A stretch of 64,000 nucleotides of DNA from Enchytraeus crypticus (taxonomy: Eukaryota > Annelida > Clitellata > Enchytraeida > Enchytraeidae): the NCBI GenBank assembly GCA_905160935.1, contig CAJHZI010000839.1:31001-95000 (forward strand), written 5' to 3'. The notes beneath the pieces were generated by a model. That model saw nothing but the letters and a program-made list of their open reading frames with translations, was not told the DNA's origin and ran no database searches. This document shows, piece by piece, positions 34,201 through 53,100 of this stretch. The position numbers and the translations under genes are program-made. Position 1 is the first letter of the stretch, and the number at the start of each line of letters is the position of its first letter.

Positions 34201-37200
34201 GTGTAGTGTATTTTGATGTATCATGGTGCAGTGTATTTTAATGTATCACAGTGTAGTGTATTTTGATGTATCATGGTGCAGTGTATTTTAATGTATTGTA
34301 GTGTAGTGTATTTTAATATATCCTGGAGCAATGTATTTTAATGTACTATAGTGTATTATGATGTATTGCGCTAGATCCAGGCTGTGGTTGTAGGACTGCT
34401 TGCTGCAATCTTCGCGGTAACACTAACCTGGTTACCACGCGGTGATTTCAACCTCTCTCACGCCTTGCTGCTCTGTACCAGCAGCATTCTAACTGCCAGT
34501 CTTGCCAGTCTACTCCTAGGTGGGCCTCTGACTGATTTATTGATTGATTGATTGATTGATTCAATTGATTGATTGATTAACTGATGGATCCAAGTAATTG
34601 ATTGATTAACTGAGCAATTTATTTACTGATTGATTGATTCAACTGATTGATTAATTATCTGACTGATTGATTGATAGATTGATTGAGCAATTTATTTATT
34701 GATTTATTTATGGATAGATTGATGGATTAATTTTCAGATTGGGTGATTTAAAAGCTATTACAGCTAATGTTAACGTCAGTTTCCTCATTCGAAATCGATG
34801 TCTGTGATGGGTGAGCCCAGGATTTGATACTGATCAGCGATTGAATATCTTACCGACATCGCCACTGGCTCCAGCCAGTTTATTGATAAATTGATTGATT
34901 AATTCTCAGATTGAGCTATAGATGGATTTAGTAATAGTCAGAGTGATTGATTGATTGTGCAGGATCTATAGTATCACTGGTGGTTATCATATCCTCTCAC
35001 TATCACGTCAATCCAGACAACGTGGCCACGCCCATTGCTGGCAGTCTGGGTGACCTGTCCACTGTGCTGATACTGGCTGTGATATCATCGGCACTACATA
35101 CGCACATAGTTACAGGTTGCATACGCACATAGTTACAGGTTACATACGTACATAGTTACAGGTTACATACGCACATAGTTACTGCTTACATACGCACATA
35201 GTTACAGGTTACATACGCACTTAGTTACAGGTGCAATATATCTTATAATAATCTTTTATTTATAATTTACTCACCAGATGACAGCAGGTTGATGGCTGGA
35301 TGTATACTACTGGTAGAGCTAATGCTAGTTCCTCTATGGTGCTATATCTCATATAACAACCTCTACACTCAGGATGCTTTGCTATCAGGCTGGACGCCTG
35401 TGGTCGCCGCTATGATGATTAGCAGGTTTGTGGTAGTCTATCTCTAGAACGTCCCCGACATCATCTTTGATGTTTGCTTTAAGTCTGTGTTTATTTGTTA
35501 AATGAATTCTAGTTCTTCATTTGTAGAGATTAAGTGTGAGGTGTTCCTTGTATTGACTTAACTACCTCTGAATCCCAAGTCTCGTTTGATCATTTCGAAG
35601 GTTGAGTAAAACTTGTTTCACTTCTTTCAATTTAAATCTTGCGATTTGAAATTTAAATTTCAAATCGATTAACGATACTAAACGATAAAAAAACGATAAT
35701 TTCAGATGTACTGAGCGATTCAGATTTTAGCAATGAAACAGTTGTCATATGGTAGCGTGATAAAATGTTACAGCCCCTTGTTCTTATTAATATGCTTTGC
35801 TTCAATGTAGTAGTTGTCTAACCTCATTGGATACTGGTTACCACTGCGCTGTATTTTCCTTTCTTCTGTTCTTCTTTCATTGGTAGATTTGTTTCTGAGA
35901 AACCATCATCCCCAATCAATTTACTTCCTTTTTCGTATCGTTAGATTTGATAATTATAATAAATTTAACTTGTTAGTGAATTTCATAAATTTAATTAATT
36001 AGTTTATTAAATTAAATGAAACCACCTTTTCTTTAATAACCTCATTTTCTTTAGGTTCATTTTTCTTTGGACTGATTTTCTGGATTTTGGAATTCTTTCC
36101 GTTTTTGGACCTTCGTTTTGCTCGCCGGCTTGATTTTTGTCTCGGTAGTGCTCGATGTTGTCATTGATGCCTGTAGCATTCTAATTGTTGCTATTATTAT
36201 TATTATTATTATTATTATTATTATTATTATTATTAAATTTAATATATTAGATTAATTAATTGTTAACTAAATGTAAAAGTTTACCAATGTCATTTCAATA
36301 GATTCGTAATTGTATGTTTTTGATTGATGCATCTGAATGTGCAGTTTTGGAGGTGTGGTACTGGATAGAACAATACTGCACTACGAAGGACTGGCTCTAT
36401 TTCAGCCTGTTATCAACGGTCAGTCATTACTTCTATTTCTACTTGATCTCATTTCAAAGTCGTATCTAGAACTAGGGCACGTATCTGCCGTAGTTCTTCT
36501 CGATCTCTCTGCTGCTGTGACACCATAAACCACAATATATGCTCCTTTCTAGACTTAATCCTCGGAATCTCTGACAGGGCTCAGAGCCTCATGGCGAGGA
36601 ACTGGACGTTAAATTCTTATTGATTGATATTGATTGATTTACTATGAGGACTGGCACTCATTCAGACTGTTATCAACGGTCAGACATTACTTATATTTCT
36701 ACTTGATCTCATCTGAAAGACGTAGTGATCAGATCTTCCTCAACCTGCTGCTGACTCATTGTTTTCTGCTTTATTTCGTCATCATCATCATCATCCTCTC
36801 TTTGTCACAGTTTAACTAGGGTTGGGTTACGAATAGACCTTTGCCACACATCTCCTTCCAATACCACAACAGACAACAAAAAGTCAACGATTATGGTAGT
36901 TTAAAATAAAGCAGAAATCAACTTATTGAAATCAAAAGATTGACTGAAGAGTCAATCTTTTGATTTCAATAAGTTGATTTCTGCTTTGTTGTCTGTCACA
37001 TTTAGTGAAGTACTAATCTACTATAACTATTGTTGTTTGCTAGGTGATGCATAATTATGTTGGTACATTTTCCAATTGCTGGTGCCAGTGGCGATGTCGG
37101 TAATATACTCGACCACGGATCAGTATGTGCGGGGTTCAAATCCTGGGCTCGCCCGTCACTGATATTGCTATCGAGTGAGGAAACTGACGTTAACCTTACT

Positions 37201-50105: not shown

Positions 50106-53100
50106 CGATGAACTCATGCTTGAGAGCCTCAGAGGGCGTTAACCTCTGGGCGGGGTCCCACGCTAGACATCTCAGTATAAAGTCAGCGAGCGACTCATCC
50201 TCACAGCCGTGTAGAGCCGCTCTGATAGACCGGCTTCCCGGCACACCGCGTGTCTTACCGTTCCTCGACCTGCCCGGTACAAACATCGCCATGCCCTCCT
50301 CGTTCATCAGCGTGCAGTAGCGGGGGAGATTAGACGAGAGCATGAAGGAGCTGGAGCGTTTAGAGCGGGCTAGCAGCCCCTCAGGGGCCAGGCCTAGGAG
50401 CTCTATGATACAGGAGAGCTGGTCAGCCTCGTCTTCCCCTGGGAATAGCGGGTAGCCGGTGAGCAGCTCAGCACTGATGCAGCCGAGGCTCCACATGTCG
50501 ATAGGCATGCCATACGATGAGCCTAGGATGACCTCGGGCGCTCGGTAGAATCTTGATTGGATGTACGTGTAGATACGCTGGTGCTCATAGCAAGATGAGC
50601 CAAAGTCTATCACCTGTGCGGTTAATCAGTCAATCAAATCAATCAATCATCCAACCAACCAACCAAATAATAAATCAATCAACCGACCAACCAACCCACC
50701 AAGAAAAGTCAACCAATAACTCAATCAATCAAAAACCAATCAATCAATCAACCAACTAACCAACTAAGAAAAGTCAACCAATAAATCTGTCAATCGACCA
50801 ATTAATCAATAAATCAATCGATAAAAGTCAACCAATATATCAATCAATGAACCAATAAATCAACCAATCAATCAATCAATTAATCAATCAGTCCTGTACC
50901 TTGATGCACAAGAACATGAACAAGTCCTGCATCTTGCTGCACAAGAACAAGAACAAGAACAAGTCTCGTACTTTGATACACAAGAACAAGAACAAGTCAC
51001 GCACCTTGATACATAAGAAAAAGTACAAATCTCGTACCTTGATGCTGGAACGACCGGGTTGTCGCAGGAGAATGTTCTCAGGCTTGAGGTCACAGTGGAT
51101 GAGACGGTTGCGGTGAAGCAGCTCGAGACAGAGCAGCAGCGAGTGGGTTAACTTGCGCACGAGAGGAACGCGGAACCCTCTGAACTTGTTCCTCTTGATC
51201 AACTCATAGAGGTTGATGCTGAGCAGCTCAAACGTGAGGCAGATGTGCTGACGAAACATGAAGCTCTCGAGCATTCTGACGACATTGCACGACCCGTCAG
51301 CGTCCTGCTGTCGTAACTGCTCTAATATACGTATCTCCTCCTGTCAATCAATCAATCAATTAAGTGATCAATAGCTGCTGTAGTAGCTGCTCTAATATAC
51401 GTATCTCCTCCTGTCAATCAATCAAGTGATCAATTGCTGCTGTCGTAACTGCTCTAATATACATATCTCCTCCTGCTATCAATCAATCAATCAAGTGATC
51501 AATAGCTGCTGTCATAGCTGCTCTAACATACGGATCTCCTCCTGTCAATCAATCAAGTGATCAATCAAACTATATATCAGCCAATTTAAAAGTCAATAGA
51601 TGAATCAATGGATAAGATAATCGACTTCAATCAATCACAAAATCAATACGAATTTAACGTCCAGTTCCTCGCCATAACGTCGGAGACGCCAATGAATCAT
51701 AGGAAACAAGGAACGCTGCACAAAATTGGTAGATATAACACAAAACAGTAGCAGCGTAACACTCGTTCAGTTATCAACCTAGGTCCAGTAGAAAGAAAGA
51801 GAGGTTATGAGAATATATTAATAGTAAAATAGTCATACTTGTAACTGTATTGCTACTTTCCTGGGCAAGCTAAAATCCCATTTCTCTCCACCATAGGTCT
51901 AAATTTTGACCCGCTTGCCTTGGATGATGGACTTGCACTGTTTTGATCTCGCTTTCTCTTGTGGTCCCTGTGTACTCAGTCGTCATCGTGTGGTGCTTTG
52001 GCGCCTGTTTGTGTAGAGTCTGTAAGAGACGTCTCTGACATTGCCTTATGGTGACGAACCGGACGTTAAATTCTTATTGCTTGAAAGAATGACTGATACA
52101 AAACATGAACATTTACATATAGTTATTTAACAATTTAAAGAAACTTTGTTACGGTTTGTTCTAACACAAAACAACAGCGTCATACCTGCGCCTGCCGATG
52201 AAATCGTTTCTCATTTCTGATGATCTTCAGCGCCACGTACGTGCCCTCCTTATGATCGTAAGCCTTGACCACCTGTCCAAAGCTTCCCTTCCCCAGCAGC
52301 CTCAGCACCTCGTAGCGGTACCCGATGTGGTCGTGGACCACGTGGTGGTACGACCCCTTCTCGTCGTCGTAGTGAAAGTTTTTCTCGGCAGCGGCAATGG
52401 GCCCACCCACCATCATGCCACCCTCTTTCCTCGCGTTGGTCCCAACGAAGTAGATGTTCTGATACGTGAAAATCTCTCGGTGCTCGTAGGGCGTGAGCTT
52501 GTGCATGAACAGCTTCATCGCCGTGTCCGGCGAGAGAACTCTGATTGGTCGATCTCCCTCCTTAACAACTCTCTTGATCTGACGACGACGCAGCGTCTCC
52601 TGCGAGCTGATCCCCAACTGATCCTTACTGATCTCCAACAGATCCTGACTGATCCCCAACTGATCCTTACTGATCCCCAACTGCTCCTTACTGATCTCTG
52701 CCTGATCCTGACTGATCCTGGATTGATCCTTACTCACCGGCAAGTCCAGTTTAATCAGAGACTTTGATTCGTCACGTTTAGCTTCAGAAGTGTCACTGGA
52801 AACAAACATGTTGGGTGTTTTGACCGGGGATCCATCCGAGGAATTTCCGTTTTCTTTAGGTTGCAACTGGACTGGTAGTCTGCCATTGAGATGGGTTGAT
52901 CCTTGGTTGGTCGGCCTCGTTGAAATAACAGAAGCAGTAGGCTTAAATTTACATGATAAGATAGATTTCTTTGAGTTTTTAATTTGAATGTCACTAGATG
53001 AAGAATCTTGAATCTCGTTTTCTTTCAATGTGGAGGTCTGAGTCACAATGTCCCTCGACTTTGAGTTTTCATTTGTTTTTGAATGTCGATGCGAAATGAC

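Follow-up and report, generated by a model that had tools for sequence, protein, structure and literature searches.

In a 64-kb window of an animal genome (positions 31001-95000 of its contig in a 524-Mb, 802-contig assembly), minisatellites run across the exon edges of several genes and leave copies of splice sites in the neighbouring introns. This raises the question of whether exon borders seed tandem duplication, as a first-pass annotation of the window had proposed, or whether duplication follows another rule and only reaches the borders. The reading that we favour, with a probability of roughly 0.77, is that these are minisatellites of the type known as mirages, that they come from frequent local duplication which is densest at the 3' ends of introns and is tolerated, and that donor copies are selected against. 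Under this reading local tandem duplications of about 20-180 bp would arise at a high rate across the genome, presumably by slippage and unequal exchange, with their greatest density over the ~150 bases at the 3' end of introns. A duplication would be tolerated while one intact copy stays flush with the exon, and where it straddles an edge the extra copies would fall in the intron, as decoys for the spliceosome to ignore. Duplications that span a donor would be filtered out more often, the probable reason being that a copied donor is a full signal by itself and a copied acceptor works only together with a branch point and context.

The window holds a Pfam match to an MgtE/SLC41-type transporter on the plus strand, and on the minus strand one to a protein kinase and one to a BTB_2 (KCTD) protein; where the gene names SLC41, DYRK, SETD1 and KCTD go beyond this support, they are presumed, in part after the first-pass annotation. 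An Rfam scan of the window gave no RNA family match. In SLC41, the kinase gene, SETD1 and KCTD, 27 edges were modelled (13 donors and 14 acceptors), and a strict boundary copy was defined as at least 9/12 matches on the exon side together with at least 9/12 on the intron side, within 500 bp. Seven sites had been named as lying inside tandem arrays (donors 35115, 37370 and 51038, acceptors 38494 and 51341, and gene ends with stops at 38659 and 50065), and all seven were found there by Tandem Repeats Finder (TRF) and in the raw sequence. Scattered substitutions separate the copies within arrays, in agreement with the divergence that had been described. Genuine splice junctions lie within the arrays, and decoy sites stand in rows behind them, both here and in genes of other contigs. 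Further arrays had been placed at acceptors; those in SETD1 and KCTD adjoin their acceptors and one in SLC41 runs into its own. The features are as follows.

2352..2510, plus strand: 18/39-bp minisatellite ending in the SETD1 acceptor (edge 2509/2510), units with TGTAG then C (TRF).
31915..31961, plus strand: 20-bp array running into the SLC41 acceptor 31956/31957, ATAG/AGATGG (TRF).
35095..35232, plus strand: 23-bp minisatellite, 6 copies, with about the last 20 nt of an SLC41 exon and the donor (edge 35115/35116; TRF, sequence).
36380..36720, plus strand: old single duplication of an SLC41 exon end and intron start (donor 36418/36419; sequence, edge-copy test).
37359..37804, plus strand: 25-bp minisatellite, about 16 copies (37359-37746) and a 31-bp tail, with exon end and donor A/GTATGT (edge 37370/37371; TRF, sequence).
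37818..37925, plus strand: 22-bp minisatellite, 5 copies, unit with the acceptor TGTAG/GTATGGGTGC (edge 37914/37915; TRF, sequence).
38371..38497, plus strand: 32-bp minisatellite, 4 copies, each with TTCACCAG/GTG, at acceptor edge 38494/38495 (TRF, sequence).
38613..38772, plus strand: 50-53-bp minisatellite, about 3 copies of the SLC41 C-terminus and stop (TGA 38657-38659; TRF, sequence).
49897..50101, minus strand: 41-bp minisatellite, 5 copies, kinase C-terminal codons and stop (50067-50065; TRF, sequence).
50890..51045, minus strand: 33-39-bp minisatellite with the kinase donor ATCAAG/GTACGAG (edge 51038/51037; TRF array over the edge).
51305..51565, minus strand: 62-70-bp minisatellite, about 4 copies, of ATTG tract, acceptor and the first ~35 nt of a kinase exon (edge 51341/51340; TRF, sequence).
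57517..57765, minus strand: 36-bp minisatellite ending at the KCTD acceptor (edge 57516/57515), units ending TATTATTCC-like, mostly without AG (TRF).

Strict copies were present at 5 of the 27 window edges, namely donors 35115, 36418 and 37370 and acceptors 37914 and 51341, and a TRF array lies over the edge within 3 bp at 9/27. At donor 35115 they stand at +23, +46, +69 and +92, the +69 copy having lost its GT; at donor 37370/37371, where TTCCACCA is followed by gtatgttc, GT is kept in all 12 copies compared. The copy of donor 36418 lies 260 bp downstream, with other sequence ending in an ATTG tail between the two; this duplication and the acceptor 37914 array are additions to the first-pass list. 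Because acceptor 37914 lies in its own 22-bp array, SLC41 intron 8 is almost wholly made of two arrays, one derived from the donor (37359-37804) and one from the acceptor (37818-37925). No copy was found at kinase donor 51038 by the strict ungapped test, and acceptor 38494 fails the 12+12 test because its unit holds only ~3 nt of exon. The unit at acceptor 2509 likewise has ~3 nt of exon and the KCTD array stops at its acceptor, so that merging into the acceptor describes these cases better. The kinase N-terminal region also carries a 21-bp in-frame coding minisatellite (52607-52734, minus strand; a 7-residue repeat around ISKDQLG), in keeping with duplication as a general process whose products pass a filter of selection.

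As the window was chosen on account of its arrays, its edge counts are biased. A genome sample was found by Pfam family search and picked by exon density, not by repeats. It comprises ten 10-kb myosin stretches, nine 6-10-kb CCT/Cpn60 stretches and one 3.8-kb kinesin stretch, and takes in part of the myosin and kinesin places found, with many others left out. Profile-adjacent exon pairs gave 73 myosin and CCT introns, of which 66 were kept and 7 dropped for score or length mismatch; one CCT stretch (L051) yielded no adjacent exon pair. Thirty kinase loci entered repeat coverage only, not the edge counts. Over the 242 kb of window and sampled loci, GC content is 35.5%. With low-complexity words removed, which excluded two acceptors (66 to 64), boundary copies occur at 12/64 acceptors against 3/66 donors, or 15 of 130 sampled edges in total; unfiltered, the counts are 13/66 and 3/66 (Fisher P 0.014), and at a stricter cut (10/12) they are 10/64 and 2/66, with 700 of 8368 points in intron interiors. 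Among the copies listed (the first 8 per edge), all acceptor copies lie upstream and all donor copies downstream, that is, in the intron. Edge words searched in mismatched introns (800-bp stretches) gave 0/931 matches, and the similarity of boundary copies is therefore not due to chance. In one unconventional myosin (L038:4648, oriented), an acceptor and exon start (NHDERNYHI) form at least five near-identical repeats at 108-bp spacing.

Comparison points show where duplication concentrates. Copies were found at 892/8368 points in intron interiors (10.7%), at 49/1549 exon points 13-60 bp from an edge (3.2%), and, 13-40 bp into the intron, at 71/395 points near acceptors and 29/457 near donors. 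On the intron side of acceptors the mean fraction of points with copies peaks at 0.28 (0.18-0.38; 27.8% of points per intron) at 41-80 bp and is 0.14 at 161-300 bp; on the exon side it falls from 0.19 at the edge to 0.15 at 13-24 bp and 0.05 at 25-40 bp, and is 0.01 farther into the exon. Around donors it is 0.03-0.05, with 0.06-0.09 past 40 bp into the intron and 7.9% at 41-80 bp. This profile leans to the 3' ends of introns and spills over 25-40 bp into exons without a spike at the border. Within the final 150 bases of introns, tandem duplications reach, 41-80 bp upstream of acceptors, about 3-5 times their density elsewhere in the intron, whether TTGA tracts are present or not.

Placement was also tested on TRF minisatellites (period at least 9), which make up 12.5% of the loci with modelled introns, by circularly shifting the arrays inside each locus 3000 times. 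Three of the four kinesin introns joined this test, the fourth being a poor model that was left out. Arrays cross 10 of 69 acceptors, with 8.9 expected from the shifts (P 0.40), and 3 of 69 donors, with 9.0 expected (P 0.011 for a count this low); for random points in these introns the figure is 9.5 crossings. The window edges crossed (8/27 against 3.9 expected, P 0.11) are not clearly above chance. Comparing arrays with shifted positions thus gave no acceptor excess and a depletion of donors in the sample, the kind of outcome that the first-pass annotation had itself named as refuting border seeding. Its junction-holding, diverging arrays with their decoys, recurring across genes, stand; its proposal that duplication starts at exon borders is not supported, as acceptors are crossed at the shifted-array rate, donors less, and copy density peaks 41-80 bp inside the intron. 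Exon borders do not seem to be the birthplace of the arrays, and acceptors seem to adjoin a repeat-rich 3' intron zone; the nearby version of the claim holds, in that duplications do favour 3' intron ends.

The 3' ends of introns also carry a polar motif. Over up to 250 nt at the 3' side, 24 of the 82 introns of window and sample hold TTGATTGA in the coding-strand sense and 1/82 its complement; at the 5' side the complement and the sense form each occur in 10/82. Examples of (TTGA)n tracts in the window lie at 1660-1752, 34540-34686, 50630-50879 and 57529-57776. Such tracts possibly supply a branch point or a T-rich tract. When TTGAT was considered as a branch point, it stood 15-50 nt upstream of 22/66 acceptors, and three zones farther off gave 10, 16 and 15 of 66; the general yUnAy motif gave 48/66, and 44, 39 and 44 of 66 farther off. 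A pairing of complementary intron ends (TCAA near donors, TTGA near acceptors) was considered and rejected, with co-occurrence in 1/82 introns and duplex energies of -36.6 for own and -36.4 for swapped ends. Of the 66 introns, 19 have a TTGA pair within 250 nt of the acceptor, and in these, copies are found at 154/254 points 41-80 bp from the acceptor and at 179/1459 further in; in the 47 without a pair, at 135/756 and 192/3141. Since the excess persists without TTGA tracts, it is independent of TTGA microsatellites.

Most of the decoys score like working sites. By a generic splice matrix, 33 of 37 decoys in the 66-intron sample equal or exceed the working site or fall short of it by no more than about 2 bits. 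Changes were counted over the window and sample together with up to 12 copies per edge: in 33 acceptor copies each AG base differs in 12% (other positions 0-18%), and in 23 donor copies the GT bases differ in 4% and 0% (other positions 0-43%). Purging or retention of decoy AG and GT was rejected, as in this small sample their loss is about as frequent as change at neighbouring positions. Among myosin edges, six have copies (two acceptors and one donor in L038, a donor in L041, a donor in L042 and an acceptor in L044), and in all six cases a related gene of the sample has none at the corresponding edge (L039, L040, L035, L036/L037/L043), with genes paired by exon similarity, not by tree, and the L044 case weak at one copy. 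Decoys that score like real sites and are absent from paralogues point to recent, tolerated duplications. Units that preserve the reading frame were considered too, and the best offset is divisible by 3 at 4 of 16 edges, that is, without a frame preference.

How the arrays come to lie at exon edges can be explained in other ways. If the splice junction itself promoted tandem duplication and arrays grew from it into introns, the seven confirmed sites, the 8 of 27 crossed window edges against 3.9 expected, and copies at 12/64 acceptor edges against 10.7% of intron-interior points would follow; with no density peak at the border, acceptors at 10/69 against 8.9, donors under expectation and a window excess of P 0.11, we consider this improbable, and in this sample it is weakly refuted. 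A stronger contender, to which we give somewhat less than even odds, holds that the 3' intron end is a mutational hot zone, helped by sense TTGA and T-rich sequence, so that acceptor arrays are spill-over and donor selection is unneeded. It overlaps the reading we favour and differs from it in the cause of the donor/acceptor asymmetry. It is supported by the contrast at 41-80 bp, where copies are found at 27.8% of points on the acceptor side and 7.9% on the donor side, by the copies near acceptors with and without a TTGA pair compared with 192/3141 points farther from the acceptor, and by the presence of TGATTGAT in the last 60 nt of 15/66 introns against 0/66 in the first 60 nt. It explains the 3 donor crossings against 9.0 only in part, and a helping role of TTGA is met by two arrays (L047:866 and L048:8878) with neither TTGATTGA nor TGATTGAT within 150 nt and by the choice of the motif after the data had been seen.

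It is very unlikely, in our judgement, that the arrays are functional splicing elements offering multiple donors or acceptors for regulated isoforms. Most decoys do score like the working site, and human IFI6 reportedly sets a precedent, to go by a title; yet related genes lack the arrays at the corresponding edge in 6/6 cases, offsets that keep the frame are not preferred, and inserts would hardly be tolerable in CCT and myosin motor proteins. Least credible of all is stutter of noisy long reads during assembly: the arrays are known from one assembly, but scattered substitutions separate their copies and such arrays occur in unrelated contigs.

Several observations weigh against our own reading of tolerated, 3'-biased duplication with selection on donors. 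Homologous copies are found at 18.8% of acceptors (interval 9-28%) and at 371/4600 points (8.1%) more than 160 bp from an acceptor, so placement is not uniform although the TRF shift test sees no excess; this count also catches single duplications that TRF does not score. Donors are not depleted in the window (strict copies at 3/13 donors and 2/14 acceptors), and in the small kinesin locus 1/3 donors and 0/3 acceptors are copied perfectly (two kinesin donors if the fourth intron is counted). Acceptor copies are far more frequent in CCT (10/22, L045-L048) than in myosin (3/44, L035-L044), a comparison made after the data had been seen (P 0.0005), and a uniform duplication rate does not explain the difference. 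Finally, the exon-flush site is taken to be the one used on the grounds of reading frame and protein homology.

The window holds other elements as well. At about 26000-29200 on the minus strand is a degenerate LINE-like (long interspersed) element, with endonuclease and GDSL-lipase-like Pfam matches below curated cut-offs and reverse-transcriptase-like frames seen by eye. By eye, too, a short dispersed repeat in both orientations and a separate element ending in GACGTTAAATTCTTATTG, in one place followed by ATTG repeats, were noticed at about 34740-34880, 37070-37200 and 39060-39180 and also at 36600 and 52050; they are likely SINE-like (short interspersed).

The first-pass annotation knew of no named class of element that does this, but there is one. 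In the excerpted text of two reports (PMC3087553, PMC3902484), minisatellite-like duplications of intron-exon boundaries are described in amphioxus under the name mirages, in Adh3, the globins BflGb6 and BflGb9, TnC and PGBD5, the last two added by PMC3902484, with units of 10-160 bp. As excerpted, PMC3087553 has both 5' and 3' boundaries duplicable, AG/GT in many but not all repeats, two haplotypes with 6 and 3 units, data suggesting undisturbed regular splicing, and a proposal of intron gain from mirages. The present arrays are real, recurrent and of the same kind: units span the boundary (5/27 window and 15/130 sampled edges), both 5' and 3' boundaries are duplicated (3/66 donors, 12/64 acceptors), and AG/GT is kept in many copies, not in all. 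The likeness is one of sequence anatomy in one assembly, and the mirages found in print come from amphioxus, while the present host is unlikely to be a cephalochordate. What the present counts add is a rate over many genes and a measured difference between donors and acceptors.

The host's genetic code was read from its mitochondrial DNA. Among 132 COX1 codons of a 400-base piece, ATA stands at an expected Met five times, and AGG at a presumed Ser site and AAA at a presumed Lys site occur once each, as in the invertebrate mitochondrial code 5. This presumably sets aside vertebrates, ascidians, echinoderms, sponges and cnidarians; amphioxus would be compatible with the code, and the COX1 protein seems more lophotrochozoan than amphioxus-like.

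In the literature searched, which included molluscs and lophotrochozoans and few subscription papers, no report of boundary minisatellites outside amphioxus was recognised. Judging by its title, Turri, Cuin and Porter 1995 is said to describe a minisatellite of a human interferon-induced gene whose donors are used in the transcript; the present arrays are described from genomic DNA. Zhuo et al. 2007 reportedly found, again by title, that human tandem arrays gave alternatively spliced introns, and so concerns intron origin, not decoys beside existing exons. In the accessible part of PMC12783039, earthworm metallothionein genes have minisatellites in their first intron; intronic minisatellites of a lophotrochozoan gene are thus shared, and exon-edge duplication is not described in that part. 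In passages of PMC3862624, cone-snail introns have microsatellites only.

The mirage reports found concern single amphioxus genes, and here a conserved gene set of another, probably unrelated animal is counted against a null; the outcome speaks against exon borders seeding minisatellites. A wider reading, which we regard as rather doubtful, would be that about one in nine exon edges of conserved genes is self-copied in a non-amphioxus animal, acceptors more than donors, with the last 150 intron bases a duplication hot zone and sense TTGA tracts that may give branch points and render acceptor duplication harmless; the genome would then be a standing experiment on decoy avoidance and on raw material for introns. 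The 3' bias, the lack of a border excess and the donor depletion in the sample lead to a testable statement on which duplicated splice signals are tolerated and on the supply for intron gain.

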